IMG/VR virus record: IMGVR_UViG_3300028840_001326
Coordinates: 1-43,864 of that record
Strand: one strand, 5' to 3'
Length of the DNA: 43,864 nucleotides
Source of the DNA: a virus
In this document: positions 1 to 29,284 of the stretch, in pieces
Layout: each line of letters begins with the position of its first letter
Numbering within the stretch: the stretch's first letter is position 1
The notes under the pieces: model-generated
Database searches by the model: none
What the model was told of the DNA's origin: nothing
Seen by the model: only the letters and a program-made list of their open reading frames with translations
Made by a program: the position numbers and the translations under genes

Positions 1-144
1 CGATCTGAGCGACTCAACGCAACCCGTGGACACGTCTCCAACGCTCCCGTTCTCGTACCCGCTGAACCTTCCGTCCTCTGGGCAGGAGACGGAATACTAC
101 GCGTTGACAGCCTACAGGAATCGCTTCGGGCTCCTTAGCTTCAA
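1..144. repeat. Terminal direct repeat, left copy (assembly overlap of a circle)
   Basis: Bases 1-144 are identical to 43721-43864, so the unique unit is 43,720 bp. A reading frame passes through the join without interruption, which is what a circular or circularly permuted genome gives on assembly. I infer an assembly overlap rather than a biological terminal repeat, because it lies inside a coding gene and has the size of an assembler k-mer overlap. Confidence 0.95.
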
Positions 145-568
145 CCAGCACCCGCGGCTGATCACGATCAACGACACAGGGGAGGAGGATCCTGGGGTTC
201 TATCTCCTCCCACGATCAGGCGCGTCTTGGACGACGCGGTGGGGACCATCTCCGTCTATAGCCTTTACGCCTACGGAGTGGACAGGAATGAGGCGGACGC
301 GTGGGAGGTCTATGTCAAGGACGGGGCGGACCCGGTCCCTGGGGTGGATAGCCCTGTGGCATCGGGGACGCTCACGAGGTTGGGCGGGGACTACCAATGG
401 AAGGCCACGATCTCAGAGTCCTGGTTCTCTCCAGGGATGACGCTCCACGTCTTGTCCGTGGTCTATCGGACGGACTCCCTGGACGACACCCTGGGAGAGT
501 CTGAGGTGGTGGAACACGTTCTAGCGGATACGGTGGACCTGGATCCCCTCACGGCGGGGATCTACTGA
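1..568 (+). CDS. Distal tail protein, C-terminal part (gene starts at 43407)
   Basis: This is the 3' part of a 293-residue protein whose ATG is at 43407. The frame runs through the circular join into base 1 and stops at 566-568. The GTG at 26 is internal and should not be used as a start. The sequence is acidic and rich in beta-prone residues, with no catalytic motif that I recognise. It lies after a run of tail and appendage genes and just before the glycosyltransferase cassette. I infer a virion tail-tip or receptor-binding accessory protein from position alone; no family is recognised. Confidence 0.8.
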   Translation, partial: DLSDSTQPVDTSPTLPFSYPLNLPSSGQETEYYALTAYRNRFGLLSFNQHPRLITINDTGEEDPGVLSPPTIRRVLDDAVGTISVYSLYAYGVDRNEADAWEVYVKDGADPVPGVDSPVASGTLTRLGGDYQWKATISESWFSPGMTLHVLSVVYRTDSLDDTLGESEVVEHVLADTVDLDPLTAGIY

Positions 569-585
569 CGGAGGAATGAGGGAAG

Positions 586-1236
586 GTGATCGAGACCAGG
601 CAGGAGACGGATGGCGTTGGCGATCCAGCGCGGCCCCGCGTGGTGGCATACTTCACGATTGGGACGCCCTACGAGGAGGAGGCGGCCAAGCTCAAGGCGT
701 CCCTCGAGGAGTGGGGATACGCCTACACAATCGCGGGGATACACCATCGGGGAAGTTGGCAGGAGAACACCCAGGCCAAGGCGCCCTTCTGTCTCCAAAT
801 GCTGGAGGAGTACGAGGGAGAGCCCCTGCTCTATTTGGACGTGGACGCCCTGATGATGCGGCCTCCCGTCCTCCTGGACGGTGGACTGGACGCGGACCTC
901 GCGGCTGTCCGCTTCATTCACAGGGACGAGTTGCTCTCTGGGACTATCTGGTGGGGGAACACGGTCCAATGCAGGAGGGTAGTGAGGAAATGGATCTATC
1001 TGAACAAGGCCCATCCCAGGCGGCTCCCAGGCGGGAAGGCGGCATGGGATCAGCGGACCCTAGATATGGCAATCCAGAAGGTGGGGGGGCTACGGTTCTG
1101 CTCTCTCCCCCAGGAGTACACATACATCCAGGACCTGACACCCAGACACCTGGATCCGTGTCCCCCCCCTGTTATCCTTCATACGAGGGGCTCCCAGAGG
1201 TTCAAGAAGCAGATCGACAGGAGGAGGGCGCGGTGA
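586..1236 (+). CDS. GT-A glycosyltransferase-like protein (DxD type)
   Basis: This 216-residue protein looks like a nucleotide-diphospho-sugar transferase. Near residues 83-88 it has hydrophobic residues followed by DVDA, the place and form of the metal-binding DxD of GT-A enzymes. A later WDQRTLDMAI segment resembles the DQ motif of GT8/GT77-like families. It would move a sugar from a nucleotide donor to an unknown acceptor in the cytoplasm. The GTG start at 586 is chosen because this frame, not the overlapping one opened by ATG 576, carries the conserved motifs. It is the first of six overlapping genes and its stop overlaps the next start. The donor sugar cannot be told. Confidence 0.78.
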   Translation: MIETRQETDGVGDPARPRVVAYFTIGTPYEEEAAKLKASLEEWGYAYTIAGIHHRGSWQENTQAKAPFCLQMLEEYEGEPLLYLDVDALMMRPPVLLDGGLDADLAAVRFIHRDELLSGTIWWGNTVQCRRVVRKWIYLNKAHPRRLPGGKAAWDQRTLDMAIQKVGGLRFCSLPQEYTYIQDLTPRHLDPCPPPVILHTRGSQRFKKQIDRRRAR

Positions 1237-1883
1237 GCGTGGACGTATGGGCGGCATGGCCGACGATCTCCCCCATGCTGTCCAGGCCCCAGGTGGAGAA
1301 ATGGCGCGAACTGGGCTACAAGGTCGCGGTTCTGGTAAATCCTCCCTTCGGTCCTGAGGACTTCGAGAGGGCGGACATGGTGATTGTTCAGGAGGAATGG
1401 ACGGGCTTCCCTGTGGCGGCCAACGTGCTATGCCTGGAGGCCCCTGGGGATGTGGTGGTGATCGTAGGGACGGACATAGACCCAGACACAAGCAGGACAG
1501 CCCAGGAGCTTGGGGGCCGCTTCCTGGAGAGGTTCCCCGATCTCTGCGGCGTTATCCAGCCAACGGGGGACGAGTACGGGGAGGTCCAGAGTTGCGCGGT
1601 CTCTCCCTGGATCGGGCGCGGCTTCATTGAGAAGGCCTACGGCGGGCGCGGCCCGTATTGGCCCGGGTACTTCCACTATTTCTGTGATCGAGAACTCCAG
1701 GCGAAGGCCCAGGCCATGGGAGCCTTCGAGCAATGGCCCCAGGTGATCCAATACCATCGGCATTGGCAGAGGGAGGCGCAACCCAGGCGCCCCAGGCATT
1801 TGAGAACAGCCAAGCGGCTCCACTCCAGGGATCGGGCCATATTCGAGTCCAGACAGGCGGAAGGGTTCCCAGATGGTCGCTGA
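1233..1883 (+). CDS. GT-A glycosyltransferase-like protein
   Basis: This 216-residue protein starts at a GTG that overlaps the previous stop (GTGA). Its frame is open far upstream, to 576, but that part is only the shadow of the preceding gene. The order of features is that of a GT2-like fold: a Rossmann-like N-terminus, then VVIVGTDIDPD near residues 70-80 in place of a DxD, then a PWIGRGFIEKAYGGRGP segment and a late HRHW. The C-terminal 35 residues are strongly basic. I infer sugar transfer onto the same acceptor as its neighbours. Family assignment is by motif pattern only. Confidence 0.7.
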   Translation: MSVDVWAAWPTISPMLSRPQVEKWRELGYKVAVLVNPPFGPEDFERADMVIVQEEWTGFPVAANVLCLEAPGDVVVIVGTDIDPDTSRTAQELGGRFLERFPDLCGVIQPTGDEYGEVQSCAVSPWIGRGFIEKAYGGRGPYWPGYFHYFCDRELQAKAQAMGAFEQWPQVIQYHRHWQREAQPRRPRHLRTAKRLHSRDRAIFESRQAEGFPDGR

Positions 1884-2520
1884 TCTAAGGGAGAAGGAGA
1901 CAACGTGGGGCTCCCACTTGCCTGTCCTCACGGCGGTCCTCGAGGTTCTCAGGCCACAATCGGCCCTGGAATGTGGGTGCGGTATCTTCTCCACTCCTCT
2001 CTTACGTCGCGTTCCAAGGCTCCACTCCATCGAGCATAGTGCTGGATGGGCGCGGGCTGTTCGGGGGAGATACCCACCCACTCCAGGGCATTCTTGGACG
2101 GTGGAGCGAGTCCCCACCACTTGCTCCAAGCCCGCTCCAGAGGTGGATCCCAAGCGCGTGGAGACCATCCAGGCCTTCTATAGAGCGTTGGCCCTCGAGG
2201 AGGCTCCCGTGGATCTCCTATTCGTTGACACGTTCGCGGCTTGTCGCGTTCCTGCGGTCTTGGCCCTGGGACCCAAGGCTCAATGGATCGTTGTCCATGA
2301 CCTCGAGCCTCCAGGCCGCGAGCATTACGGATGGCCGCGGCTGGACGCCTTCTTCGAGGACTGGAAGCAGTACGTTTACAGGCCACCCCATGGAAGCGCG
2401 TGGACGGGGTTGGCATCGAGGGAGCCCCTGGACCTGGACAACCTGAGCCACGCGGCTCTCCATGAGGCGCGGCGGCTCTGGGGGCAGGATGTCCGCTTCG
2501 AGGAGGGGTGGTATGGTTGA
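1873..2520 (+). CDS. Class I SAM-dependent methyltransferase
   Basis: This 215-residue protein has the Rossmann layout of small-molecule or sugar O-methyltransferases. ALECGCGIFSTPLL near residue 31 is the glycine-rich SAM loop (motif I). An acidic HSIEHS follows as motif II, VDLLFVDTF near residue 114 is the post-II strand, and WIVVHDLEP is typical of Methyltransf_24-like enzymes. It overlaps both neighbours in the glycan cassette, so a sugar or glycoprotein substrate is the reasonable inference. DNA or RNA is less likely, because there is no target-recognition domain. Confidence 0.78.
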   Translation: MVADLREKETTWGSHLPVLTAVLEVLRPQSALECGCGIFSTPLLRRVPRLHSIEHSAGWARAVRGRYPPTPGHSWTVERVPTTCSKPAPEVDPKRVETIQAFYRALALEEAPVDLLFVDTFAACRVPAVLALGPKAQWIVVHDLEPPGREHYGWPRLDAFFEDWKQYVYRPPHGSAWTGLASREPLDLDNLSHAALHEARRLWGQDVRFEEGWYG

Positions 2521-3268
2521 CCTCGTGGCCGGGTATGCTCGCGGCTACCACGCCCGGAAGGTGCGGCCCTTCCTCAAGTCCCTGAGAATGACGGGCTACG
2601 AGGGGCGCATCTTATGGTTCGCGGACAGGGGGGCCGCGGAGGAGGGGGAGAGGTGGGGGGCCATGGTCCGCCCTCCGCCTCGTCCCGTGACCAAGGTCCA
2701 CCATGATAGATTCTTCCACCTCGCGGCGGCGGTCAAGGAGATAGCGTGCGAGGGCGTCCTGGTGGCCGATACGCGGGATGTAGTGTTCCAGAAGGACCCA
2801 AGCCAAGCTCTCCCCTCTGAGGGCTTCCACGCCTTCGAGGAGGACCTCTCCATGAGGGTGGGGAGTTGTCCCTGGAACTCCAAATGGATCCGTGAGGCGT
2901 TCGGAGAGGCGGTCCTGGAGGCCATGGCGGACCTCCCCATCTCCTGCGTTGGGGCTTCCTGCGGAGATCACAGGTCTATGAGCCTGTACCTGGATCAGAT
3001 CGCGGCGGGGATCCGCGTCCATTCCCAGGACACGGCCCACCATAACTCCATTGTTCGGCGCAGAGCCAACGAGGTCTTCCAGGGCTCCAGTCTGAGGGTC
3101 TGGGGCAACGAGGAGGGCGAGGTCTACACGGTGGGCTATGTCCCCAGGGAAACGGTGAAGATCGTCCACGGGAAGATCGTCAACAAGGCGGGGAGGGTCC
3201 CTGCCGTGGTCCACCAATGGGATCGACATGAGAACCTAAGCGCCTTTATCAAGGAGGTCTACAAATGA
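2513..3268 (+). CDS. Glycosyltransferase-like protein with DVVFQ motif
   Basis: The protein is 251 residues. ATG 2513 is chosen because an AGGAGGGG ribosome site lies at 2501-2508; the frame is open a little further upstream, without a site. The segment FFHLAA...VLVADTRDVVFQKDP around residues 70-98 matches GT-A enzymes in which D-x-R-D-V-V-F-Q carries the metal-binding acidic pair. Downstream come a Cys/Gly-rich strand, a DQI and a late VVHQWDRH, all usual in that group. It is the fourth gene of the cassette and overlaps genes on both sides by 4-8 bases. Confidence 0.72.
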   Translation: MVDLVAGYARGYHARKVRPFLKSLRMTGYEGRILWFADRGAAEEGERWGAMVRPPPRPVTKVHHDRFFHLAAAVKEIACEGVLVADTRDVVFQKDPSQALPSEGFHAFEEDLSMRVGSCPWNSKWIREAFGEAVLEAMADLPISCVGASCGDHRSMSLYLDQIAAGIRVHSQDTAHHNSIVRRRANEVFQGSSLRVWGNEEGEVYTVGYVPRETVKIVHGKIVNKAGRVPAVVHQWDRHENLSAFIKEVYK

Positions 3269-4059
3269 CGCGGAATTTTATCACCAACCAGCGGCTAGCG
3301 GAGCTCGCGGGCCTGAACTACGACGCGGAGGCTGTCCAGCCGGGGCCAATCGTTTACTCCAGGACCCAGAAGATCCATTCCCAGTTCCGACAGTTGGGGG
3401 CGTTCCCGCCCTGCGTGCTGATCACGAGCTACTCTGACGCGTGCGTAACGGACGGAATGCTCCGCGTCCTGCCTCCAAACGTCCGCCGCTGGTATTCCAA
3501 CAACGTGAGGACCAGGAGTCCGCTGGTGAGGGCGGTCCCCATTGGTATCAGGACTTCCGTGGAGGGGGAGGCCCTCCTGAGGGCGGCAATGGACCAGGGG
3601 CGTCCAGATCAGAAGGGGCTCCTGTACCTCTGCTTCTCCAAGAAGATCCCAGGAGGCCCCACGCCCAACCCAAGGCGCGGACTCTATGAGAAGTTCGAGG
3701 ACCTGGAGTGGGTCACGGCAGAGGGTGGAGGGGAGCCGGTCCCCATGGAGCAGTTCTACGAGGGGATAGCGTCCCACCCATACGTCCTCTCCCCTCCTGG
3801 GGCGGGTCCTGACTGCCATCGGCATTGGGAGAGCATTCTCCTGGGCTCGATCCCTGTGGTCCTGCGGAGCCCAGAGGTGGAGGCGGTCCTCGAGGGCTTT
3901 CCCTGCCTGATGGTGCGGAGGTGGGACGAGGTCACGGAGGAGCGGCTCCTCGAGGAGTTGCCTGGGCTCCAGGAGCGCTTCGCGTTGCCAATGGAGTCCC
4001 TGTGGTTCGAGTATTGGGAGAGCCTGATCCTGGAGGACGCGGGATGCCTCGACTCGTAG
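3265..4059 (+). CDS. Exostosin-like glycosyltransferase (GT47-type GT-B fold)
   Basis: This 264-residue protein carries the exostosin hallmark near residues 168-190: YVLSPPGAGPDCHRHWESILLG followed by SIPVVL. In the exostosin/GT47 family this segment contacts the nucleotide sugar and contains the conserved DxxRxWE. The N-terminal half is a plausible acceptor domain with less recognisable sequence. Eukaryotic exostosins build heparan-type polymers; short bacterial and viral members transfer single sugars, and their products are mostly unknown. The start overlaps the previous stop by four bases. Confidence 0.82.
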   Translation: MTRNFITNQRLAELAGLNYDAEAVQPGPIVYSRTQKIHSQFRQLGAFPPCVLITSYSDACVTDGMLRVLPPNVRRWYSNNVRTRSPLVRAVPIGIRTSVEGEALLRAAMDQGRPDQKGLLYLCFSKKIPGGPTPNPRRGLYEKFEDLEWVTAEGGGEPVPMEQFYEGIASHPYVLSPPGAGPDCHRHWESILLGSIPVVLRSPEVEAVLEGFPCLMVRRWDEVTEERLLEELPGLQERFALPMESLWFEYWESLILEDAGCLDS

Positions 4060-4667
4060 CGTGCGGGATACCCAGGAGCGGCTCAACGCTGATATGGCAA
4101 CTTCTCCAGGCCATATTCCCCCTCCAGGAGATCCAGAAGGTCCACCCGGATGTCTGGAAGCCTGAAGGGGCCACGGCGGTGATCTCGATCCGTGACCCTC
4201 GCGACGTGGTGGCCTCCCTCTACAGGATCAGGCTCGCCCGACGCCATCGGAGAGGGAAGGGGGCGGCCCGGGATCTCACGGCGGCGATCCAGCGGATGGA
4301 GGTGAGCTTCCGCGCCCTCCGCGAGGTGGTGAAGGGTCCCTCCTTGCTGCTCTGGTATGAGGACTTCTGGAACAATTACGGGGTGATATTCGACGCCCTG
4401 GAGGAGGAGTTCTCCGTGGCGATCCCCGCGGACTATCGGCGGATGCTGTCTGGAGAGTTCGGGGTCTCGAGGAACAGGGAGCGGGCGTCCAAGCTGGAGG
4501 ACTTCGGAGAGTGGGACGAGTTCCACATCCATGGGGACCACATCGGGAGCGTGAGGCCTGGGGCCTGGGCTTATGATCTGCCAGAATGGGCGAGGGCTCG
4601 CGTGGAGGAGGCCTGTTGTGGGGTAGGGGAGGAATGGGGGTATGGATCCCGGAGGCTTACGCCCTAG
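4044..4667 (+). CDS. PAPS-dependent sulfotransferase
   Basis: This 207-residue protein shows both PAPS-binding signatures. GIPRSGSTLIWQLL at residues 8-21 is the 5'-phosphosulfate loop (PxSGxT type). SIRDPRDVVAS at 48-58 is the 3'-phosphate motif with the expected Arg and Ser. It should move sulfate from PAPS to a hydroxyl, here most likely on a sugar made by the five preceding genes. ATG 4044 has a GGAGG at 4032-4036 and the gene overlaps its neighbour by 16 bases. It is the last gene before a probable terminator. It is short for the family, so the acceptor-binding part is reduced. Confidence 0.85.
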   Translation: MPRLVACGIPRSGSTLIWQLLQAIFPLQEIQKVHPDVWKPEGATAVISIRDPRDVVASLYRIRLARRHRRGKGAARDLTAAIQRMEVSFRALREVVKGPSLLLWYEDFWNNYGVIFDALEEEFSVAIPADYRRMLSGEFGVSRNRERASKLEDFGEWDEFHIHGDHIGSVRPGAWAYDLPEWARARVEEACCGVGEEWGYGSRRLTP

Positions 4668-4726
4668 CGTGGCAGGGTTGGGGCGCCTTCCCTCAACCAA
4701 CAAAAGGCCCTAGCCCTGCCGCGTTT
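4668..4726 (+). terminator. Compound hairpin, probable end of late operon
   Basis: Bases 4668-4677 pair with 4714-4723 (10 bp including one G.U). Inside, 4676-4683 can pair with 4691-4698, partly in competition. It sits one base after the sulfotransferase stop and is followed by TTT and then pyrimidines rather than a full U run. I infer a terminator of the late/glycan operon, possibly factor-assisted. Confidence 0.5.
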
Positions 4727-4810
4727 CCCTCCCCTCGCGGACGCCCGCCCTGGGCGATCCCATAACCCAGAGATTCTTCATCCAAACGCCCGAAAACAGT
4801 CCGTTTTCCC

Positions 4811-4839
4811 TTGACTTCCCTTGTATAATCCACTATACT
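4811..4839 (+). promoter_or_regulatory. Sigma70-type early promoter
   Basis: TTGACT at 4811-4816 and TATACT at 4834-4839 are separated by exactly 17 bases. The surrounding region is unusually AT-rich for this genome. Transcription should begin near 4846. It lies between the end of the late operon and the first early gene and drives a roughly 100-base structured leader. Confidence 0.8.
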
Positions 4840-4847
4840 GTTCAACA

Positions 4848-4951
4848 TGAGATACCAAAACAACAGCCAACAAGCAGAGAAGGGGCTCCTGGGACCGTCT
4901 ATGGTATCTCACCCAGGAGTCCCTCCTGCGTTCTCAGGAGGTAGTGAGATG
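4848..4951 (+). ncRNA. Structured 5' leader with possible pseudoknot and SD-sequestering hairpin
   Basis: The leader of the early transcript can form three helices. P1 pairs 4848-4857 with 4902-4911 (10 bp, perfect). P2 pairs 4881-4893 with 4912-4924 (13 bp, one G.U). P3 pairs 4922-4928 with 4935-4941 (7 bp, 6-base loop) and buries the AGGAGG of the first gene. The strands run P1, P2, P1', P2' with P1' and P2' contiguous, which is pseudoknot order. P2 and P3 share 4922-4924, so a full P2 would weaken P3 and free the ribosome site. A CA/A-rich 23-base stretch joins P1 to P2. This is predicted from pairing only. The perfect repeats might instead be DNA operator half-sites. Confidence 0.6.
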
Positions 4952-5395
4952 ATGTGGTACAAGGGCAAGCCCGCGGGAACGTTCTACTGGGAAGACTGGG
5001 CGGACGAGGAGGCCCAGGAGGAAGCGGCAAAGAAGCACGCGGAGTCCTGCATCCAGGATGTGGAGGACATGAGCGAGAAGGCTATAGAGGCCATGGCGGA
5101 GCAACTGGAGGCCCGTGGAGGCATGGCCGCGGCGAAGGCCCGCTACAAGAAGGCCCTGGAGGAGGAAGGGGAGCGACTGAGCAAGGAGAACGCGAGTCTG
5201 GTGGAGTGGGCGGAGGAGACCCAAGCCAAGTTGAACCGGGTCAAGATGTTGGCGAAGTTGGGCTACAGCCCCAGGGTCTGCCGGTCTGCCCTCTCGGATC
5301 TGGAAGCGGCAATGTGGGCGTTCCGTTCCGCCCTGCCGGAGGAGGAGCGGGATCGGCTGGAGTGGTTGGAGGCGAACCAGGAGGTGGCGTCATGA
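4949..5395 (+). CDS. First early protein, helical/coiled-coil, unknown function
   Basis: This 148-residue, acidic, Lys/Glu/Ala-rich protein looks almost entirely helical. ATG 4949 follows AGGAGG at 4936-4941. The frame is open back to an ATG at 4847, but that start would be nearly leaderless and would translate the structured leader. I know no family. Its place directly behind the early promoter and leader suggests a protein needed early in infection, such as a host-takeover or replication accessory factor. It overlaps the next gene by 4 bases. Confidence 0.75.
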   Translation: MMWYKGKPAGTFYWEDWADEEAQEEAAKKHAESCIQDVEDMSEKAIEAMAEQLEARGGMAAAKARYKKALEEEGERLSKENASLVEWAEETQAKLNRVKMLAKLGYSPRVCRSALSDLEAAMWAFRSALPEEERDRLEWLEANQEVAS

Positions 5396-5688
5396 TGAGC
5401 GCAAGGGATCCCAACGCGTACCTCCCCGCGTGGGCGGAGGCGGAGATCGAGGACCTGGAGGGGACCTGTGAGAAGTTGGAGGTGAAGGTGGAGGAGTTGA
5501 CCGCGGAGCGCGACGATCTGAAGGAGGATGCGAAGGCGTTGGTATTGGAGCGAATGGACCTATGGGAACACGTTGACAATCTGGAGGCAGAGGTGGAGAG
5601 CCTCCGGAAGAAGATCAAGGGCCTGGAGTGGGAGAAGGTGGACTTGGCTCTCGCGGCCTGTGTCGAGATCCTGGGAGGTTCAGAATGA
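5392..5688 (+). CDS. Small coiled-coil protein
   Basis: The 98 residues start at ATG 5392 (or 5395) inside the previous stop. From about residue 15 to 85 there is a continuous heptad-like pattern of Leu/Val with Glu/Lys, typical of a parallel coiled coil. No catalytic motif is seen. It could be a scaffold or adaptor partner of the preceding helical protein, with which it is translationally coupled. Function unknown. Confidence 0.72.
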   Translation: MMSARDPNAYLPAWAEAEIEDLEGTCEKLEVKVEELTAERDDLKEDAKALVLERMDLWEHVDNLEAEVESLRKKIKGLEWEKVDLALAACVEILGGSE

Positions 5689-5939
5689 GCATCTGCTACG
5701 GTTGCCATTACTGGGGGATAGACTGTTCCGATCCTATTGATCCCGGTTGGCCCGGGGTTCCGGACTGCTTCGAGCCCTTCCGCCCTGAGCCGCTGGACTA
5801 CCCTGGAAAGGAGGAACTAGAGGAGGAGGGTTGCCGCGGTTGCGGTGGCCCTCTCACCAACATGGAGGGCGGGGACTACTGTCTGGAGTGCGTTGGGGTA
5901 CTCCAGGAGGAACACCTACCAGAGCCGTACCCGCAATAG
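5685..5939 (+). CDS. Small zinc-ribbon-like protein
   Basis: This 84-residue protein has two Cys pairs: CYGC near the N-terminus and CRGCG...CLEC at residues about 49-70, which would suit a zinc ribbon. The rest is acidic and Pro-rich. A GGGAGG at 5674-5679 precedes ATG 5685, which overlaps the previous stop. It is one of several Cys-rich mini-proteins in this genome. It may bind nucleic acid or a host protein; no family is recognised. Confidence 0.72.
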   Translation: MSICYGCHYWGIDCSDPIDPGWPGVPDCFEPFRPEPLDYPGKEELEEEGCRGCGGPLTNMEGGDYCLECVGVLQEEHLPEPYPQ

Positions 5940-5960
5940 AGACGAGGGAAGGAGGACAGC

Positions 5961-6329
5961 ATGGGCGCGAAGAAGGACGTGGTGATCATCGAGGTGGAGG
6001 GCGGCAAGGAGGCGAAGTTCACCTTGGGAGTCCCTGGGGTGGTGGAGATCGAGGGGGAATATGGGCCTTGGTCTCTGCGGACCATGAAGGTCAAGATGGC
6101 GGACGGATCCACCCATGAGGCCATTGGGGAGTTCTCGGACGTGGACTCTGGAGAACACGGGGGGACGGGGCTCCTGTCCAGGGACGGGCGTGAGTTCGTT
6201 TGGCAGGGGGACCCCGGGTTCCTGGAGGCATTGGGGAAAACTTCGGAGGAGGTCTTCCCGTACAGGTACAAGCCCTACATTCCATGTTCTCGAGATCACC
6301 ACATTGGAGAGGATGGCTGGAGCAGATAA
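5961..6329 (+). CDS. Early hypothetical protein, beta-rich
   Basis: The 122 residues start at an ATG eight bases after AGGAGG. The N-terminal 60 residues alternate hydrophobic and charged positions as in a small beta barrel. The middle is acidic and the C-terminal tail is basic/His-rich. No known motif is visible. It sits between the zinc protein and the Gp157 gene in the early operon. Confidence 0.68.
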   Translation: MGAKKDVVIIEVEGGKEAKFTLGVPGVVEIEGEYGPWSLRTMKVKMADGSTHEAIGEFSDVDSGEHGGTGLLSRDGREFVWQGDPGFLEALGKTSEEVFPYRYKPYIPCSRDHHIGEDGWSR

Positions 6330-6349
6330 CACCCAAGGAGGGAAGGAAG

Positions 6350-6844
6350 ATGAAGCTGTACGAATTGACGGACGACTACTTCGGCATACTGGAGAGGATC
6401 GGGGAGAGTGGGGAGGTGGACGAGGAGACCGCGGCCCTCCTTGAGGCCCTGGATGATGAGATCGAGGTCAAGGCGGAGAACGTGGCCAAGGTGATCAGGA
6501 CCCTGGAACTGGAGGCGGACGCGATCAACCAGGAGGCCAAGCGGCTAGCAGATCGGGCGCGGGCGAAGGCCAACAGCGCGGCCCACCTCAAGGACTACCT
6601 CCACAGGAACCTCGAGGCCCTGGGGAAGAAGAAGGTGGAGGGCGAGGTTCTGACGGTGAGCCTCCGCAAGAAGCCTCCATCCGTGGAGGTAGTGGACGCG
6701 TCTGTGATCCCTGACGCCTTCACGGAGGAGAGGGTGGAGACCCGGGTGGACAAGCGGGCCATTCTCCAGGAGTGGAAGGAGACAGGGGAGACGGTCCAGG
6801 GTTGCGTGATCCACAAGGACGGACACAGTCTACAGATCCGATAG
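6350..6844 (+). CDS. Siphovirus Gp157 family protein
   Basis: This 164-residue protein matches the Gp157 family in length and layout. An N-terminal helical part runs from YELTDDYFGILER through a charged coiled coil with ADRARAKANSAAHLKDYLHRNL. A beta-rich C-terminus follows, with the family's VSLRKKPPSVEVVD segment. In streptococcal phages Gp157 was linked to phage resistance when carried by the host; its molecular role is not settled. It commonly sits next to a recombinase, as here with ERF. ATG 6350 has GGAGGGAAGG just upstream. Confidence 0.88.
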   Translation: MKLYELTDDYFGILERIGESGEVDEETAALLEALDDEIEVKAENVAKVIRTLELEADAINQEAKRLADRARAKANSAAHLKDYLHRNLEALGKKKVEGEVLTVSLRKKPPSVEVVDASVIPDAFTEERVETRVDKRAILQEWKETGETVQGCVIHKDGHSLQIR

Positions 6845-6864
6845 ACCAACAAGGAGGACGTGAG

Positions 6865-7677
6865 ATGACGGACATAATCCAGCTACAGTCTGAGACGATA
6901 GGAGCCCTCGCCAAGGCGAAGGCCGCGGCCCAGGCGGAACTCCAGGATCCTGTCAAGACGCGGGAGGTCAAGGTCAAATCGGCCAAGGCTAACTTCTCCT
7001 ATAGCTTCGCGGACTTGAACGACTGCGCGGCCCTGATCCGTCCAGTCTTCTCGAAGCATGGGTTGGCCATTACCCAGAGGGTACTTACCACATGGGTGGC
7101 GGACGATCCCCTCCTCGTCATCAGTACCCAGATCACCCACGGGGAGAGTGGGGAGTGGGAGCGCGACTGGTACGCCCTACCGTTCGCCAAGGGCAGGACC
7201 CAGAACGGGACGGAGTACCTCCTGGGCCACCAGGAACAGGCCAAGTTGATCACGTTCAACAAGAGATACTCCCTCGTTACTATGTGCCTTTGTTGCCCCA
7301 AGGGGGATGATGACGACGGGAACAGCCTCCCCGACAGTTTGAGAGGAGAGGTCTCCCCCCCCAAGGAACAGCCGCGGCAGCCACGGCAACAGGGCTCCCA
7401 GGGCGGCGGTGGAGGCTCTGAGCAGAAGAAGCACGGCCCTCATGTTTGGCACGCGTGGGGCTTGGCGGGGAAGGTCTGGGAGGACTACGGTGAGCGAGGG
7501 AAGCAACTCACCTTCCAGGTTAAGACCCTAAGCACGGGAGAGGTTACGTCCTGGGAGGCCATGAAGGAGCGACCCGCAGAGGATCCCCTCTGGAGCCAAC
7601 TGGAGGAGAGGCTCCGCGGGTTCATAGGAGGAGAAGGCAATGGCCAAGAAGCAGAAGAAGATGATGCCCCATTCTAG
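6865..7677 (+). CDS. erf: ERF-family single-strand annealing protein
   Basis: This 270-residue protein belongs to the ERF recombinases, which anneal complementary single strands during phage recombination and genome circularisation. The core at about residues 40-150 contains FSYSFADLNDCAALIRPVFSKHGL and later VISTQITHGESGEWERDW, the usual ERF order. After residue 150 comes a Pro/Gln/Gly linker (about 165-190), then a C-terminal region with a Trp-rich segment and an acidic EEDDAPF-type end. Such acidic tips often recruit partners such as SSB. No SSB or exonuclease is obvious nearby. Confidence 0.88.
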   Translation: MTDIIQLQSETIGALAKAKAAAQAELQDPVKTREVKVKSAKANFSYSFADLNDCAALIRPVFSKHGLAITQRVLTTWVADDPLLVISTQITHGESGEWERDWYALPFAKGRTQNGTEYLLGHQEQAKLITFNKRYSLVTMCLCCPKGDDDDGNSLPDSLRGEVSPPKEQPRQPRQQGSQGGGGGSEQKKHGPHVWHAWGLAGKVWEDYGERGKQLTFQVKTLSTGEVTSWEAMKERPAEDPLWSQLEERLRGFIGGEGNGQEAEEDDAPF

Positions 7678-7948
7678 CGGACTGATCGACCACGGAGGAG
7701 GGCGGTACAGTGTCCCGAAAGGAACGACACAGAAGGAACTCCAGAGAATGCTCGAGGGTCTGGATCGGAACGGACGGAGTCCGTCATCCAATAGGAGGCG
7801 AACTTCACGGCGTCCTCCAGGCTACAGGTGGAAGAAGGGAGGCGGGATCGTCGAGTATGGAGAGGGCGAGGAGCCTTCTCCTCCCTCTCCTGGGCGCGTT
7901 GTTCGGATCAAGGGGAACCAGAAGGAGGAAGACGATGGCACAAGCTAG
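7640..7948 (+). CDS. Small basic protein, unknown
   Basis: This 102-residue protein begins 38 bases inside the ERF gene in another frame, with AGGAGGAGAAGG before ATG 7640. The N-terminus is Lys-rich (KKQKKMM), the middle is Arg/Ser/Pro-rich and the end is acidic. It has no recognised domain and could be a nucleic-acid binding accessory of the recombinase. Codon choice resembles its neighbours less clearly than most genes here, so it is less certain. Confidence 0.55.
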   Translation: MAKKQKKMMPHSSGLIDHGGGRYSVPKGTTQKELQRMLEGLDRNGRSPSSNRRRTSRRPPGYRWKKGGGIVEYGEGEEPSPPSPGRVVRIKGNQKEEDDGTS

Positions 7949-8333
7949 GTGGTATCACCAACTCCCAATGTCCTGGATCGAGGACGTTGCTTGTCCATGC
8001 TGCGGGGAGGTCAAGATCAAGACCAAGGTTCTCGCGGCCCTGCGGAAGGTTGGGCATAGGTACGGACAGATGATCTATATCACGTCCGCCTACAGATGCC
8101 CAAGCCACAACGCGAGCCTCCCAGGGTCCTCTCCTACCTCCAAGCACATGGCAGGGCTCGCCCTGGATATTGCTCCCCTAGCACAGGAGACGCGGGAGGC
8201 ATTCGTTGAGACCCTGGACAAGCTGGAGACCGCGTGCGTTGAAACCAGGGAGATAGTGTTCATAAAGCGATACCGGACCCACGTCCACATTGATCTTCGC
8301 CCAGGCCAACGGATCTGGAAGCGGGAGGTGTAA
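7935..8333 (+). CDS. M15-type zinc peptidase (D-Ala-D-Ala/endolysin-like)
   Basis: This 132-residue protein has the Peptidase_M15A/VanY-like zinc site. ITSAYRCPSHN is followed by SKHMAGLALDIAP (His and Asp ligands near residues 70-78) and the late THVHIDLR with the third His. A CPCCGE pair near residue 20 is extra. Enzymes of this group cut peptidoglycan stem peptides and often serve as phage endolysins. It sits in the early block rather than among late genes, next to a membrane protein, so it may be the endolysin or act on the wall early. The start overlaps the preceding gene. Confidence 0.85.
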   Translation: MAQARWYHQLPMSWIEDVACPCCGEVKIKTKVLAALRKVGHRYGQMIYITSAYRCPSHNASLPGSSPTSKHMAGLALDIAPLAQETREAFVETLDKLETACVETREIVFIKRYRTHVHIDLRPGQRIWKREV

Positions 8334-8335
8334 GC

Positions 8336-8653
8336 ATGAAGATGTCCAACCAAATAGCCCTATTGACTTGTCTCGTGGCGTTGCTGTCCCTGGTGGGCCA
8401 CTATTGGCTCCTGTGTTACTGGGGACAGCATCTGGAACTAGCACGGGCAGAGATCGCGGCGGGGATCGCCAACGCGGAAGGGCGCGTCCTCAACGAGGTG
8501 ATCTCCCAGGAGTTCCGGCTGGAGATCAAGGACCTGAGTCCAGAGGAGCGGCTGGAATATGTCGCGTTGCTTGCCTGTCAGGGCGAGGAGGGCGAGGAGA
8601 TCCGTGGCGTGGAGGCCGTGGCCATGGTGGAGGAGGTGGCTCCGAATGAGTAG
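8336..8653 (+). CDS. Membrane protein next to peptidase; holin or spanin candidate
   Basis: This 105-residue protein has a single hydrophobic segment at about residues 6-28 followed by a long charged helical tail. A type II or N-terminally anchored topology fits an inner-membrane spanin or an accessory holin. It starts two bases after the M15 peptidase stop, which supports a lysis role by neighbourhood only. No family match is claimed. Confidence 0.68.
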   Translation: MKMSNQIALLTCLVALLSLVGHYWLLCYWGQHLELARAEIAAGIANAEGRVLNEVISQEFRLEIKDLSPEERLEYVALLACQGEEGEEIRGVEAVAMVEEVAPNE

Positions 8654-8912
8654 GGAGGAAATGCTGGAGACCATACAACAGGTGATGGATTGGCTCCACT
8701 ATTCGGGCCACCACAAGCAGGAGGCCAAGCTATGCATAGCGCGGGACGCTGTCCTGGAGGTCCTTGGCGTGGCGGTAGATCGGAGGAGGCGGATCGAGGA
8801 GCTGTTGGATGCGATAGACGCCATTGTGATATCTCCGTCGGGTACTTTAGGCGTGTATCGGGCTAGAGAAATAGAGAGACGCATCCGCCAAGAAGTCGGA
8901 GGTGAGGGGTGA
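8646..8912 (+). CDS. Small hypothetical protein
   Basis: This 88-residue, mostly helical protein is rich in Arg and Glu. ATG 8646 overlaps the previous stop and its own TGA overlaps the next GTG. Nothing in it points to a function. It belongs to a run of short translationally coupled early genes. Confidence 0.65.
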   Translation: MSREEMLETIQQVMDWLHYSGHHKQEAKLCIARDAVLEVLGVAVDRRRRIEELLDAIDAIVISPSGTLGVYRAREIERRIRQEVGGEG

Positions 8913-9175
8913 ATTGGACAGGAGAAACCTGTGAGCATGGAGGGTATTGCTGTAATCCAGAGGAATGCGAGGCCGTGGCGAGGGGGAAGACCCTCCTGGA
9001 GGTTTTCGGAGAGGAGGAGAGGAAGAAGCGGAGACGCGTGGAGTCCCTGGTGGATGCTGCGCGGGCGGTATCGGAGGAAGCTTGTATCCTGAACGACAAC
9101 GAACAAAGCGTGGAGACCAAGCTCCTCGAGGCCATGGACGCGGCCCTGGAGGAGATAGAGAAGGGAGGTCTGTGA
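8909..9175 (+). CDS. Small Cys-rich N-terminus protein
   Basis: The 88 residues start at a GTG overlapping the previous stop (GTGA). The first 20 residues contain four Cys and a His (CEHGGYCCNPEEC), which could hold a metal. The rest is a charged helix. No family is recognised. Confidence 0.65.
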   Translation: MNWTGETCEHGGYCCNPEECEAVARGKTLLEVFGEEERKKRRRVESLVDAARAVSEEACILNDNEQSVETKLLEAMDAALEEIEKGGL

Positions 9176-9447
9176 TGGCGTACCAGAAGGAGCGACGGGA
9201 GCGGCTCAGGATCCTGGTCCAGGAGATCAAGGAGGAGAAGGGCTGCTCCAGGTGCGGGGATAACAGGTTCCGCCATCTCGCCTTCCACCACAGGAACAGG
9301 ACCCACAAGCGATTCTCTATCGCGGAGGCCCTCAGGTATCGGCTCTCCCAGAAGACCGTCCTGGAGGAACTCCGCCGTTGTGACATCCTCTGCCATTCCT
9401 GCCACGCCACGGTCCACCATGAGCGCAGAAGGAGGGCGGCGGCATGA
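9175..9447 (+). CDS. HNH-like zinc protein, possible nuclease
   Basis: This 90-residue protein has the metal frame of HNH endonucleases. GCSRCG comes near residue 24, HLAFHHRN near 35, and CDILCHSCHATVHHE near the C-terminus, giving two CxxC knuckles around a central HH. The central His pair and last His could form a beta-beta-alpha metal site. Short phage HNH proteins assist packaging or act as homing enzymes. This one lies in the early block, so repair or recombination is also possible. ATG 9175 overlaps the previous TGA. Confidence 0.72.
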   Translation: MAYQKERRERLRILVQEIKEEKGCSRCGDNRFRHLAFHHRNRTHKRFSIAEALRYRLSQKTVLEELRRCDILCHSCHATVHHERRRRAAA

Positions 9448-9737
9448 AGCGGAAGAAGGCGGCGGGATATGTGAACTTGGAACTGGTGGAGAAGTTGGCG
9501 GAGAAGGAGTGCGAGCCCGCGGAGATCCTGTATTACCTCGTATTACGGGAGATGATGGAGAAGGGAGAGGAGGCCTTGACCCCTGACACGGTGGGCTCGC
9601 GGATCAGGCGGACGCGGATGATGTCGTGGCTCTACCTGGAGACCCTGGAGACCAGGGGCGTCCTGAAACGCCCAGAGGTGGAGAAGGGCCGATCCAGGAG
9701 GAGGAACGTCCTCAGGGATACCGTGTTCAACGTGTAG
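9444..9737 (+). CDS. Hypothetical protein, possible winged helix
   Basis: This 97-residue basic protein has predicted helices and an ending KGRSRRRNVLRDTVFNV that could be the wing of a winged-helix domain. The fold suggestion is weak. It is the last gene before the second promoter, so a role in regulation is possible. It overlaps the HNH-like gene by four bases. Confidence 0.62.
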   Translation: MKRKKAAGYVNLELVEKLAEKECEPAEILYYLVLREMMEKGEEALTPDTVGSRIRRTRMMSWLYLETLETRGVLKRPEVEKGRSRRRNVLRDTVFNV

Positions 9738-9744
9738 ATTTGGA

Positions 9745-9773
9745 TTGTAATGTGGCTCCCTGCGTGGTATAAT
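9745..9773 (+). promoter_or_regulatory. Sigma70-type promoter for the replication block
   Basis: TTGTAA at 9745-9750 and a consensus TATAAT at 9768-9773 are separated by 17 bases. The start of transcription should be near 9780. A 12-bp inverted repeat brackets the -10 box, so the promoter is probably regulated. Confidence 0.78.
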
Positions 9774-9798
9774 ACGGCATACTATAGCAGGGAGCCAC
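9752..9798. promoter_or_regulatory. 12-bp inverted repeat, probable operator
   Basis: Bases 9752-9763 (GTGGCTCCCTGC) are the exact reverse complement of 9787-9798. The left arm is in the promoter spacer and the right arm lies at about +8 to +19. Since the left arm is upstream of transcription, this cannot be a hairpin in that transcript, which favours a DNA-binding site for a repressor bridging the promoter. The HTH protein encoded 16 bases downstream is the obvious candidate. Confidence 0.65.
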
Positions 9799-9813
9799 TA
9801 GGAAGGAGGCAGT

Positions 9814-10017
9814 ATGCCAGAAGCAACGGCAACATTCCCGGAAGGGCCGTTCCTCAGTTTCGAGGAGGCGGCGGCCATGCTCCAGGTGGACCGGACAACT
9901 CTGAGCCGGTGGATCAAGGAGGGCAGGGTCCCGGAGTCCTGCTACGTCCAGCCCTCGAAGAAGTACATATTCTCGAGGACCGCCCTGGAGCGTTGGGTGG
10001 GGGAGGGGGGTGAGTAA
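9814..10017 (+). CDS. Helix-turn-helix DNA-binding protein (excisionase/HTH_17-like)
   Basis: This 67-residue protein has the MerR/excisionase-type winged helix: LSFEEAAAMLQVDRTTLSRWIKEGRV at about residues 12-37, followed by a short wing and FSRTALERWV. AGGAGG at 9804-9809 precedes ATG 9814. It could repress its own promoter through the 12-bp inverted repeat just upstream, help at the replication origin, or act as a replication-block regulator. With no integrase in the genome, a true excisionase role is unlikely. Confidence 0.82.
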   Translation: MPEATATFPEGPFLSFEEAAAMLQVDRTTLSRWIKEGRVPESCYVQPSKKYIFSRTALERWVGEGGE

Positions 10018-10829
10018 TGGCCGGCAAGCCTTATCCGTGGATGCAGTTCTGGCCCACGGATTGGCTCAAGGACACGCGGATCCTATCCCTGGGCTGTAGA
10101 GGGTTCTGGATCGACCTCATAGCCTATATGCATCCGGATGGAGAGTGGACGGGGACCCTGGAGCATTTGGCGCGAATGGTGGGAGGAACAGCGGAGGAGG
10201 TGAGATCATACCTGGAGGAACTGAGAGACACAGGAACGGCGGACGTAACTTGTCACGAGGCGTCCCGCGGATGTCACGGTGAGACCTGGACCCTGGTGAG
10301 CCGCAGAATGAAGAAGGAGGCGAACGAGAGAACAGCCGCAACCAAGCGGAAACAGAGGCAGAGGGCCAAGGCTTCCAAGCCTCGTCCCGCCCATGTCCCA
10401 CCTCCTCGTCCCGCCAATGTCCCGCCCATGTCACAGACAGAGACAGAATCAGAGACAGAATCAGAAACAGAGATAGAGAAGAAGGCTCCCTCTCCTGTGG
10501 AGGAAGTTCTCCCTGAAACCTTCGAGGGCTATTGGAACCAGAAGGCCGACGCGGTCCAGGGGCTTGTCCCTCTGTTGGCCATGGACGAACCTCTCCGCCG
10601 GGAACTGAAGGCTCGATGCGAGGACCCGTGGTGGGTGGAGCATTGGCTGGAGGCCTTGGCCGCGGTCCCGTCCTGCCTTTGGCACGTCCAGAACGGGAAA
10701 GCAACGCCGGACTGGTTCCTCAAGGAGGGGACCGTGAGGAAGATCCTCCAGGGCAACTTCAAGGCTACAGAGAAGGAGAAGGCACAGGAGCGCAAGGGCA
10801 AGCACGCCATGTACAAGATGCTAAATTGA
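10017..10829 (+). CDS. Replication initiator / replisome organizer-like protein
   Basis: The protein is 270 residues. The N-terminal YPWMQFWPTDWLKDTRILSLGCRG is typical of DUF1376-like phage replication proteins. A winged-helix region follows to about residue 85, then a low-complexity linker rich in Pro, Thr, Ser and Glu (about residues 115-160), then a C-terminal domain with Trp motifs. This bipartite layout is that of lambda O-type initiators: the N-terminus binds origin repeats and the C-terminus meets the helicase loader or host helicase. The linker-coding DNA itself holds repeats (10380-10475), as in lambda. The start overlaps the HTH gene stop (TAATG). Confidence 0.78.
   Translation: MAGKPYPWMQFWPTDWLKDTRILSLGCRGFWIDLIAYMHPDGEWTGTLEHLARMVGGTAEEVRSYLEELRDTGTADVTCHEASRGCHGETWTLVSRRMKKEANERTAATKRKQRQRAKASKPRPAHVPPPRPANVPPMSQTETESETESETEIEKKAPSPVEEVLPETFEGYWNQKADAVQGLVPLLAMDEPLRRELKARCEDPWWVEHWLEALAAVPSCLWHVQNGKATPDWFLKEGTVRKILQGNFKATEKEKAQERKGKHAMYKMLN
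10380..10475. repeat. Iteron-like direct repeats, candidate origin of replication
   Basis: Two adjacent 24-base units (10380-10403 and 10404-10427) agree at 21 of 24 positions. They are followed by two perfect 12-base units GAGACAGAATCA (10440-10451, 10452-10463) and a diverged third to 10475. The second part is A-rich on an otherwise GC-rich background. The arrangement of iterons plus an A-rich stretch inside an initiator gene resembles the lambda origin; function is inferred. Confidence 0.5.
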
Positions 10830-10844
10830 GGGAAGGAGGGCAAT

Positions 10845-11195
10845 ATGCCCAGGAAGACGTTGGTGGAAGTTGTGACTACGAAGGCCTACAGGTGCGCGAA
10901 CTGCTCCACGGTCCACGAGAAGCGGGAGAGTGTCTTCCCCTGCCCGATCTGCGGGGAGGCTATCTGTGGGAGTTGTTCAGAACTCGTGGGGCTTGGGTAC
11001 TCCGTGGGGGAGGGCCTGGAGACGGAGTGGACGGACACGGGGAGCGTCCACGTCCATCCATCCTGCCTCGAGGATCGCGGTGGAATGCTGGAGAAGGCCC
11101 TCTCCGGTGAGCGGATCGCCAGAAGCTTGGCGCAGGGGCGGCGGCGGAAGTTCAAAACAACTTGCTTCCAGAAGAAGGGGGCCGCGGATGACTAA
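10845..11195 (+). CDS. Zinc-finger-like protein
   Basis: In this 116-residue protein residues 16-45 hold CANC, CPIC and CGSC pairs, enough for a treble-clef or RING-like double zinc site. HVHPSCL near residue 69 adds His and Cys. The C-terminus is basic. AGGAGGG precedes ATG 10845. It may bind nucleic acid or act as an adaptor in the replication block; no exact family is claimed. Confidence 0.72.
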   Translation: MPRKTLVEVVTTKAYRCANCSTVHEKRESVFPCPICGEAICGSCSELVGLGYSVGEGLETEWTDTGSVHVHPSCLEDRGGMLEKALSGERIARSLAQGRRRKFKTTCFQKKGAADD

Positions 11196-11493
11196 GCCCA
11201 CCCCAGGACCATGGCGGAGAGGGCGTGGGAAGTCCTCCATATCCGTTTTCGGACGTGGAGGGGTTCCCGTGGCCGTGGCGGATCCGCGGTGGGACAGGAA
11301 GGGAGACGCCTACAGGATCGCGAGGACCAACGCCCAGTTGATCTCCGCGGCTCCTGATCTCCTCAGGGCGGCGAAGAAGGCCCTGGAGTGTGACGGTGAG
11401 ATCCTGATGTATGACACGGGAGGCCTACCTACAGAGGCCACAGACGCCCTAGAGCGGGCGATCAAGAAGGCAGAGGAGGATGTGAGTGTCTGA
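11188..11493 (+). CDS. Small phage protein with PGPW and SAAPDLL motifs
   Basis: This 101-residue protein has TPGPW near the N-terminus, then a central NAQLISAAPDLLRAAKKAL and a late AIKKA helix. This pattern is common in uncharacterised small phage proteins. It overlaps the preceding gene by 8 bases. A related gene lies at 12776-13087, sharing the SAAP-L--A-(K)-AL and AI-KAE segments, so the two are probably ancient duplicates or two members of the same family. Function unknown. Confidence 0.75.
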   Translation: MTKPTPGPWRRGRGKSSISVFGRGGVPVAVADPRWDRKGDAYRIARTNAQLISAAPDLLRAAKKALECDGEILMYDTGGLPTEATDALERAIKKAEEDVSV

Positions 11494-11701
11494 TCTCCTG
11501 CGGCGTGGCATATCTGCGGACGTGGCCCAGGCCAAATCTCGCGAGATCGAGGAGAGGCCCAGGGCCGTGGTCTATGTGGACGAGGAGGGGCGGGCGTCCT
11601 GCGAACATTGCGGGCAGTTTTTCAACCCGTCCGCCCGCTCCTGGTTCCTGAACAAGGCGCGGGGCCGTTGGGAGCATCGTTGCCTTCTAGGAGGGAGGTG
11701 A
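11486..11701 (+). CDS. Small Cys/His protein
   Basis: The 71 residues start at a GTG overlapping the previous stop. A C-x2-C pair (CEHCG) near residue 39 and a later H-x-C (EHRC) may form a one-zinc finger. The sequence around it (PSARSWFLNKARGRWEHRC) is basic and aromatic, which fits nucleic-acid binding. No family is recognised. Confidence 0.65.
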   Translation: MSDLLRRGISADVAQAKSREIEERPRAVVYVDEEGRASCEHCGQFFNPSARSWFLNKARGRWEHRCLLGGR

Positions 11702-11704
11702 GGG

Positions 11705-11947
11705 GTGAGCAAGATCAGACCATTCTCCAACGGGAGCCAATACGCGGATTGGACGGAGAGGAACTGCGTGAGGTGCGGGAAATGGGACCCAGACAAGGCG
11801 GGGGACTGTGAGATAGACCTAGCCCTGGGCTTGGGCTACCTTGGGGACGGGCTCATTTCGGCAGAGATCGCGGACAGAATGGGCCTCCTTGAGAACCGCA
11901 GAAGCTACACTTGGGATTGTCCAGAGATCCAGAAGGGAGACGGGTGA
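11705..11947 (+). CDS. Small Cys-containing hypothetical protein
   Basis: The 80 residues start at GTG 11705, with GGAGGTGAGG just upstream. CVRCGKW near residue 21, with C34 and a C-terminal WDCPE, could give four metal ligands. It precedes the radical SAM gene and overlaps it (GTGA). A role as a partner or substrate carrier of that enzyme is conceivable but unsupported. Confidence 0.65.
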   Translation: MSKIRPFSNGSQYADWTERNCVRCGKWDPDKAGDCEIDLALGLGYLGDGLISAEIADRMGLLENRRSYTWDCPEIQKGDG

Positions 11948-12786
11948 GCGGACAGCATCTCCGCGTCTTCCCCAGGAAGACCTCGTACACGCCCACGGAT
12001 CCGGCTGTCCGCTTCGGGCCTCCAGGCCTATTTGACCGCCCGGAGTCCGTGGACGTGTCCGTAACCTTCACATGGGATATTCCTCGAGGGGAGTGGTTGC
12101 GCCACCAATGGGAGATGGTCTGTGATCGGGTGAGGATCGGCGGCCCCGCCTTCGGAGATCCAGGGGGGGCCTTCGTTCCTGGGCGGTACGTCCGCGAGGG
12201 CGTGACGATCACCTCCAGGGGCTGTCCGTGTCGCTGTTCATTCTGCTACGTTCCCAAGCGGGAGGGAAGGATCCGCGAGCTGGAGACAATCCACCCGGGG
12301 AACGTGGTCAACGACAACAACCTTCTAGCCTGTTCAAGCGATCACCTGGAGCGCGTTTGGGCCATGCTAAGAACCCAGGGGGACATCCGATTCCCTGGAG
12401 GCCTGGACGCCACGAGGCTGAAGACGGACCACATAATGGCCCTCCGCGGGCTGTCCGTGCGGGCTCTCTGGTTCGCCTTCGACTCCGGAGAGAAGTGGCC
12501 CCACGTCCAGAACGCGATCCAGCGTTGCCGCGAGTATTGGACCAGGGACCGCCTCCGCTGTTATGTCCTCATGGGCTACACGGGGGACACGATAGACGAG
12601 GCGGAGGGAAGGCTCCGTTGGGTATGGGACCAGGGGGCCATCCCGTTCGCTATGCTCTACTGTGACGACAACGGGAAGACGAGAGGAGGAGAGTGGAGGA
12701 GGCTCCAGAAGATATTTGCACGGCCCGCGATCTTGCGCGGGATCTGTAGGGACGGGAGAGATTGGAGGTCTGTTGGTGAGGCGTGA
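11944..12786 (+). CDS. Radical SAM enzyme
   Basis: This 280-residue protein contains the CxxxCxxC 4Fe-4S motif within SRGCPCRCSFCYVPKREG near residues 90-107. It should bind SAM and start radical chemistry. Downstream, FPGGLDATRL, LWFAFDS and CYVLMGYTGDTIDEAE form the partial TIM barrel strands seen in a group of phage Fe-S oxidoreductases. The substrate is unknown. In other phages such enzymes lie in replication or modification regions, as here between zinc proteins and a DNA methyltransferase, so a nucleotide or nucleic-acid substrate is possible. GTG 11944 overlaps the previous stop. Confidence 0.85.
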   Translation: MSGQHLRVFPRKTSYTPTDPAVRFGPPGLFDRPESVDVSVTFTWDIPRGEWLRHQWEMVCDRVRIGGPAFGDPGGAFVPGRYVREGVTITSRGCPCRCSFCYVPKREGRIRELETIHPGNVVNDNNLLACSSDHLERVWAMLRTQGDIRFPGGLDATRLKTDHIMALRGLSVRALWFAFDSGEKWPHVQNAIQRCREYWTRDRLRCYVLMGYTGDTIDEAEGRLRWVWDQGAIPFAMLYCDDNGKTRGGEWRRLQKIFARPAILRGICRDGRDWRSVGEA

Positions 12787-14222: not shown

Positions 14223-14245
14223 TACCCTAGGGAGCATCTCACTAC

Positions 14246-14280
14246 GACAGGGGCCGGGTTAGACGGACTCGGTCCCTGTC
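14246..14280 (+). promoter_or_regulatory. 11-bp hairpin in the leader of the next gene
   Basis: Bases 14246-14256 pair with 14270-14280 (one G.U), closing a 13-base loop. No U run follows. It stands 20 bases before the ParB-methyltransferase start in the only gap of this block. It may be a processing or translation signal, or a weak terminator. Confidence 0.45.
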
Positions 14281-14300
14281 CCTCCAATCCCGGAGGTCCT

Positions 14301-25302: not shown

Positions 25303-25303
25303 A

Positions 25304-25520: not shown

Positions 25521-25549
25521 AGACCCGCAGATGTAGGAGCCCCACCAGG

Positions 25550-29274: not shown

Positions 29275-29284
29275 GGAGGGGCCA

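Follow-up and report, generated by a model that had tools for sequence, protein, structure and literature searches.

The leader that precedes the first early gene of this phage is probably (at a chance of about 0.6, in our estimate) an instance of an RNA control element that acts in cis, as an attenuator, and recurs in the early and replication operons of phages. Its layout consists of a promoter, the first strand of a stem P1, a spacer, the first strand of a stem P2, a loop, and then the second strands, P1' and P2', contiguous with each other. As read from the genomes compared here, this layout recurs beyond chance, and some of its pairs are wobble pairs on the transcribed strand. Beyond this, we infer action as an attenuator whose output can be exchanged. 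A regulatory role for the leader is likely.

The window (the whole stretch of DNA that was analysed, 43,864 bases long) is an IMG/VR virus record that carries an exact 144-bp direct repeat at 1–144 and 43721–43864, and the phage genome is therefore probably complete and circularly permuted. Its genes lie on the + strand. The leader occupies part of a 281-nt gap, from an upstream hairpin to gene 1, and gene 1 heads a block of Gam-like, ERF-like, endolysin-like, HNH, replication, methyltransferase, terminase and portal genes. The features of this region are as follows.

4668–4723, + strand: strong hairpin (arms of 17 nt) that follows the preceding gene and stands ahead of the promoter; upstream transcription likely ends here
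4811–4839, + strand: promoter, TTGACT (4811–4816), 17 nt, TATACT (4834–4839), 10 of 12 consensus positions
About 4845–4847, + strand: predicted transcript start, from promoter spacing
4847–4849, + strand: AUG in the reading frame of gene 1, at the predicted 5' end or 1–2 bases from it
4848–4857, + strand: P1 5' strand, TGAGATACCA, 10 Watson–Crick pairs with 4902–4911
4858–4880, + strand: spacer L1, 23 nt, A/C-rich
4881–4893, + strand: P2 5' strand; the nested fold extends this hairpin to 4874–4929
4902–4911, + strand: P1' strand, TGGTATCTCA, inside the P2 loop; 4905–4912 has an alternative partner at 4944–4951
4912–4924, + strand: P2' strand, contiguous with P1', with no T-tract behind
4922–4941, + strand: hairpin P3, CCTCCTG/CAGGAGG, which would bury the Shine–Dalgarno (SD) sequence; ruled out when extended P2 forms
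4932–4949, + strand: alternative hairpin UCUCA/UGAGA, with the SD shown in its 8-nt loop; nested-ensemble probability 0.89
4936–4941, + strand: SD of gene 1, AGGAGG
4944–4951, + strand: GTGAGATG at the start of gene 1, a near-repeat of the P1 5' strand and the alternative partner of P1'
4949–5395, + strand: gene 1, 148 aa; the same frame is open from 4847 (182 aa)

The sequence-only reading from which this work departs had described three stems here, and each of them is exact: P1 with its 10 Watson–Crick pairs, P2 with 13 pairs (4881–4893 with 4912–4924), one of them G·U, and P3 with seven (4922–4928 with 4935–4941). It was right, too, about the interleaved order of the strands (P1, P2, P1', P2'), in which P1' directly abuts P2', and about CTCCTG and CAGGAG, which alternate twice. 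Two further helices compete with these, one of 9 bp (4886–4894 with 4932–4940) and one of 8 bp (4905–4912 with 4944–4951). The pairings are real, and well beyond chance. None of 6000 dinucleotide shuffles of 4843–4951 produced stems that were interleaved, contiguous and 8 bp or longer apiece, and one of the 6000 had a 13-bp stem of any kind. Interleaved stems of 10 and 12 bp occur once on the + strand of the genome and nowhere on the - strand; among 60 whole-genome shuffles, examined on one strand each, they occurred in one.

The promoter had also been noticed. Promoter-like sites within 1–14300 are no more frequent than in shuffled sequence (2 against 2.7 in a simple scan), and the promoter call at 4811–4839 consequently rests on position and quality. 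Nested equilibrium folding, a model that forbids pseudoknots, gives P1 a probability of 0.00, extended P2 (4874–4929) 0.96 and P3 0.0002. In this ensemble the SD of gene 1 is 81% open, among the most open of the 52 starts surveyed, and P3 costs some 7 kcal/mol relative to extended P2, although SD-open and SD-closed structures can both be drawn. Of the regulatory switch proposed from the sequence, a likely regulatory, promoter-proximal, interleaved leader is supported, and burial of the SD as its normal state is not; nor do the data point to a ligand or protein partner for a riboswitch-like role. P1 and the SD hairpin are possible states, not the ground state that the pseudoknot-free model predicts. 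For 4845–4960 the overall fold energy lies below that of shuffles by 3.2 standard deviations, and for 4874–4951 by 4.0; taken plainly, it is unexceptional for this GC-rich genome, in which start 4841 ranks 871 on the + strand. With the P1 strands blocked and P2 forced, the energy is -45.3 kcal/mol, and the P1 duplex contributes -13.9; with an assumed pseudoknot penalty near +9, the knot comes to about -50, near the -48.3 kcal/mol of the full nested fold. The knot is thus energetically possible rather than proven, and it is plausible that the leader forms a pseudoknot. P3 and extended P2 are mutually exclusive, as are P1 and the helix between P1' and the gene start; more than one state is thus genuinely open to the leader.

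One alternative is that P2 alone matters, as an ordinary leader hairpin near the SD that serves stability, processing or upstream insulation, while P1 is a chance match. The nested ensemble, with extended P2 at 0.96 and P1 at 0.00, favours this, as do the strong hairpins that occupy several other intergenic gaps of the genome. With P2 held fixed, however, a P1 of 10 Watson–Crick pairs arises in only five of 20,000 shuffles (and at 7 of 6238 overlapping positions when the same geometry is slid along the genome), and a P1 of 10–13 bp recurs at the same place in other phages in the strict scan described below. We consider the alternative unlikely. Among the other hairpins of the genome are a strong one within 14223–14300 and, behind it, a second with CCTCC/GGAGG arms, in which the SD of the methyltransferase (N6/N4) gene starting at 14301 is fully buried; at 25303–25585, amid the structural genes, a GC-rich hairpin followed by TTTTT forms a terminator-like site.

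The layout was sought on both strands of 100 sequences (1,787,131 bp), a set that is not unbiased, most of its records being portal relatives and the later ones relatives of the HNH gene of phage G001, and some of them near-duplicates; the thresholds were fixed after the window and the first hits had been seen. Five strict hits were obtained: the one in the window, one each in G001 and G008, and two in G010 (G010a and G010b), these three other phages being related to ours in their structural genes. A promoter matching at least 8 of 12 positions ends 5–8 nt before P1 in four of the five, and was present at 21 of 200 mock positions, a rate at which four of five has a probability of about 6e-4 (by hand). 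Twelve shuffles of the whole set yielded 10 strict hits, one of them promoter-linked. An initial scan of 11 related records (670,474 bp) gave two leaders of like build besides coding and low-complexity hits. The G001 and G008 elements are these.

G008, 30883–30981: promoter TTGCAA-17-TACAAT, A/C-rich spacer, ends in a T-tract
G001, 13288–13386: promoter TTGAAG-17-TATACT, A/C-rich spacer, ends in a T-tract

Ranked by energy, the top three promoter-linked matches are G001 (-52.7), the window (-47.9) and G008 (-45.7), against -40.5 for the best in eight whole-set shuffles. From a further 79 sequences (983,911 bp) came G010a, the promoter of which matches at 12 of 12 positions, and G010b, with no called promoter. 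In the strict promoter-linked elements, L1 is 23 nt long in the window and 24, 24 and 23 nt in the others. Relaxed stems, of which the best 30 of 8,250 matches were viewed and 11 examined closely, brought three weaker cases: G030 (26245–26322), G021 (reverse strand) and L179 (5871–5976, identical in L180), the last two with mismatches. Of the remaining relaxed matches, six were rejected by eye as coding-like (G033 42189, G032 61234, L068 3080, G018 67065, L183 6061 and L077 2796), G005 28247 has no SD-led gene behind it, and G008 32308 is the mirror, on the other strand, of the G008 element. L086 9710 and G009 14748 were also set aside by eye as non-leaders, and G005 66911 for low complexity.

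The same layout thus stands, in quite different letters, behind promoters in several distantly related phages, as far as these sequences go, which makes an RNA control element, of a little-known kind, likelier than a chance fold. When G·U pairs are tolerated there are four promoter-linked matches; when A·C, G·A, C·U or nothing is tolerated instead there is one, always G008. Three promoter-linked matches need G·U pairs on the transcribed strand, which points to stems of RNA rather than to operators or repeats in DNA. The notion that the inverted repeats are DNA operators, bound by a repressor at the promoter, draws on the other early promoter-like site (9745–9773), which is enclosed by an inverted repeat with perfect 12-bp arms, ahead of a small gene. 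It is very unlikely for the leader, because the recurring elements favour G·U on the transcribed strand, because all eight of them have either a T-tract behind P2' or pairing between P1' and the gene start, which are features of RNA, and because the P1 word finds 25 matches at two mismatches or fewer where 28.9 are expected, and none with one. As to the other site itself, TTGTAA-17-TATAAT lies inside the repeat 9752–9763/9787–9798 (region 9745–9813) ahead of an ORF at 9814–10013, the product of which resembles, by eye, a small HTH protein; the site may be an operator or a read-through hairpin.

In six of the eight elements (G001, G008, G010a, G010b, G030 and G021) P2' runs into a T-tract, and P2 therefore looks like a terminator stem there; in G010a the tract belongs to P2', whose paired end reads TTTTA. 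The window and L179 have no T-tract behind P2', and they are the only two in which P1' can pair with the gene start. These pairings are 7 bp (p 0.036) and 8 bp (p 0.0035) long, against shuffled start regions, post hoc and uncorrected; in the other five elements tested the best pairing is of 3 to 5 bp. That gene-start pairing occurs in exactly the two elements that lack a T-tract suggests one switch with two outputs, a terminator or pairing of P1' with the gene start. A T-tract is also what would be expected of a stand-alone small RNA, consisting of a promoter, a stable RNA knot whose 5' end is paired, and a terminator, to which the next gene is incidental. Six of eight elements agree with this, but the window and L179 lead into a gene without a T-tract, and a gene or gene-like ORF begins within about 25 nt of P2' in the seven promoter-linked elements; such an RNA is quite improbable.

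At the other end of the leader, an AUG lies 7–8 nt after the -10 sequence in four of the seven promoter-linked elements (the window, G008, G010a and G030) and opens frames of 182, 31, 33 and 57 codons, respectively, through the knot. Among the 3865 promoter matches that these sequences contain, 142 have an AUG so placed, and in 66 it opens at least 30 codons; the positions counted were picked after the cases had been seen, and this comparison is post hoc and uncorrected. In G001 the 5' AUG opens a frame of just three codons, and in L179 and G021 there is no AUG at this place. In the window, as had been anticipated, the AUG at 4847 is placed such that a ribosome could open the knot, and its frame continues into gene 1. 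An open frame, joined to gene 1 and begun at the predicted 5' end, could also signify that AUG 4847 simply begins a longer gene 1 protein, the pairings being side effects. Set against this are the strong SD that precedes 4949 and the composition of the extension, whose codon score ranks at the 7th percentile among real coding segments and at the 93rd among off-frame ones, with a GC3 of 0.50 versus 0.755. The extension does not look clearly coding, and we regard a longer protein as very improbable indeed.

Most of the elements lie in replication modules. G001, G008 and G030 share a locale, comprising a SNF2-type helicase, a Toprim primase, the element, an HNH or HTH gene and a DnaB-like helicase, according to Pfam run on part of the helicases and primases; the HNH assignment in G001 rests on relatives of the protein, for which Pfam gives just DUF7562, below the cut-off. 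In these three the element follows the primase gene by 48–103 nt, and the pairing is kept although the letters of the stems are completely different. Behind the L179 and G021 elements, too, come HNH/HTH and DnaB genes, and behind G010a a NUMOD3 gene. Most records lack the element: three of 15 post-primase positions have it, and 11 are without a clear one. In 15 stretches of named phages (59,441 bp) near rep, HNH and primase genes there was no promoter-linked element, and one promoter-less match of 11/10 bp (L190). From these counts, either the element is mobile or often lost, or the three form a local family. At the same post-primase place in G013, after 13636, there is a promoter followed by a different structured leader that ends in a T-run, and the SNF2-type helicase of G001 occurs with an intein-like insertion in L114:9823–12189.

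Searches by sequence returned little for this region. A DNA search of phages with the early region found no close homologue of the leader; searches with gene 1 (viral and genome contigs, the 34 records behind the loci, and phages) gave no usable homologue, and those with the replication and ERF proteins none of the early region. Gam gave only two distant relatives, L094 and L095, both of which were put into the layout scans. Early-region DNA against 36 records gave weak matches, none at E<0.006, and the two best lie upstream of the promoter in an apparently unrelated coding stretch. Words of the leader had no matches in one search and matched six contigs in another, all unrelated on inspection. 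L083 and L086 share an unrelated palindrome with arms TGAGATACCA/TGGTATCTCA, the left flank of which is the same in both; it may be a repeated element. For terminase and portal there are relatives at 60–70% identity, the portal relatives in named phages all being below 60%. With no sequence homologue of the leader found, there is no covariation to be read within one alignment. The product of gene 1 matches no Pfam family and no PHROG. The suggestion that the leader falls in no described RNA class agrees with Rfam (4227 families, at gathering score), which gives no match in the window, RF01695 included, and, at a lax threshold, only chance-like hits below threshold at 4800–5000, at the G001 element and in the stretch with both G010 elements.

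How such a leader might operate can be sketched as follows. The P1 5' strand would be laid down at about +1 to +3 after the promoter, followed by the spacer (23–24 nt in the four strict promoter-linked cases), the P2 5' strand and the loop, and then by P1' and P2' just before the gene. In the six elements with T-tracts, P2 would act as a terminator stem. In the window and L179, pairing of P1' with the 5' end of the transcript would leave the start free, the on state, and pairing of P1' with the gene start would be the off state. More weakly, we infer that the AUG at the 5' end is covered by P1 once P1' is made, and that a ribosome loading early opens the knot. A ribosome from this AUG reads, in the window, in frame into gene 1, and the leader would in this way couple early expression to quick translation.

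Known systems resemble the leader in part. The repY–repZ leader of IncI/IncB plasmids combines a pseudoknot with translation of a leader peptide ahead of a replication gene; its parts come in a different order from those of this leader, for which no antisense RNA was identified. The nearest phage precedents are the hairpins that bury the SD in T4 genes e, soc and I-TevI, and the T4-type gene 32 mRNA pseudoknot, an autogenous translational operator at which the gene's own product binds an A+U-rich site and coats it (PMC3014915). The latter resembles this leader in that a pseudoknot, here a possible one, stands in a phage leader ahead of the translation start (PMC3014915). It differs in that here P1' abuts P2' without intervening bases, the spacing is not the same, and relatives carry terminators. 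The SAM-II riboswitch, too, folds as a pseudoknot. SAM-II leaders of Sinorhizobium metA and metZ are small, have a terminator or SD output, and contain an in-frame second AUG (PMC9373788); unlike them, our leader has no Rfam match, and the elements have no letters in common. Escherichia coli mRNAs with a 5'-uAUG and a later SD-led gene are known (ptrB and others), and the 5' AUG of ptrB is needed for binding of 30S subunits at the gene start and can control the downstream start (PMC4965119). As in these, there is an AUG at the 5' end (predicted here from promoter spacing) and an SD-led gene; unlike in these, the AUG would be covered by P1, and the sections consulted report no pseudoknot (PMC4965119). 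The c4 antisense RNA of phages P1 and P7 presents short complementary segments around a ribosome-binding site (PMC12197685; family in PMC2864571), but is a separate RNA that acts on ant mRNA, whereas the pairing here is within one leader. On these descriptions we assign the leader to none of the gene 32, SAM-II and c4 types, and the portions of the literature consulted contained no described match to its layout. Pseudoknot leaders are already known in phages; what is added is that the present layout turns up again, promoter-linked, in further phages.

Sequence and covariance are the usual routes to new RNA regulators. We raise tentatively, and with more doubt than confidence, the prospect that the elements belong to a class of regulator conserved in geometry rather than sequence: a knot at the first transcribed bases, over a leaderless AUG, with a 23–24 nt bridge and exchangeable outputs, which would test, on a timed basis, whether ribosomes have loaded before replication or early genes are expressed. 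If so, searches by sequence and covariance would miss such regulators, and since the element shows up only through layout and promoter, similar ones could be common and unseen. Geometry that recurs without sequence would surprise RNA specialists, but the strict cases are few and the evidence is all computational. It would add pseudoknot-based control to phage replication operons, and provide a test bed for folding, leaderless ribosome loading and termination competing in the first moments of transcription.

Elsewhere in the window, an ORF among the structural genes (28811–29935) matches a PHROG annotated as alpha-2,3-sialyltransferase. The hairpin at 36404–36440 (GGCTCC...TGGTAT) was, by a small margin, the best non-self likeness to the leader, and was rejected as such, as it looks like a frameshift stimulator. 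It is strong, and follows a GGGAAAC heptamer that lies in the right frame (checked by hand) near the end of the ORF at 36003–36401; the -1 frame is open into the ORF at 36446–36766, just before the tape measure gene, and the region 36389–36440 is likely the site of a programmed -1 frameshift of the tail assembly chaperones.
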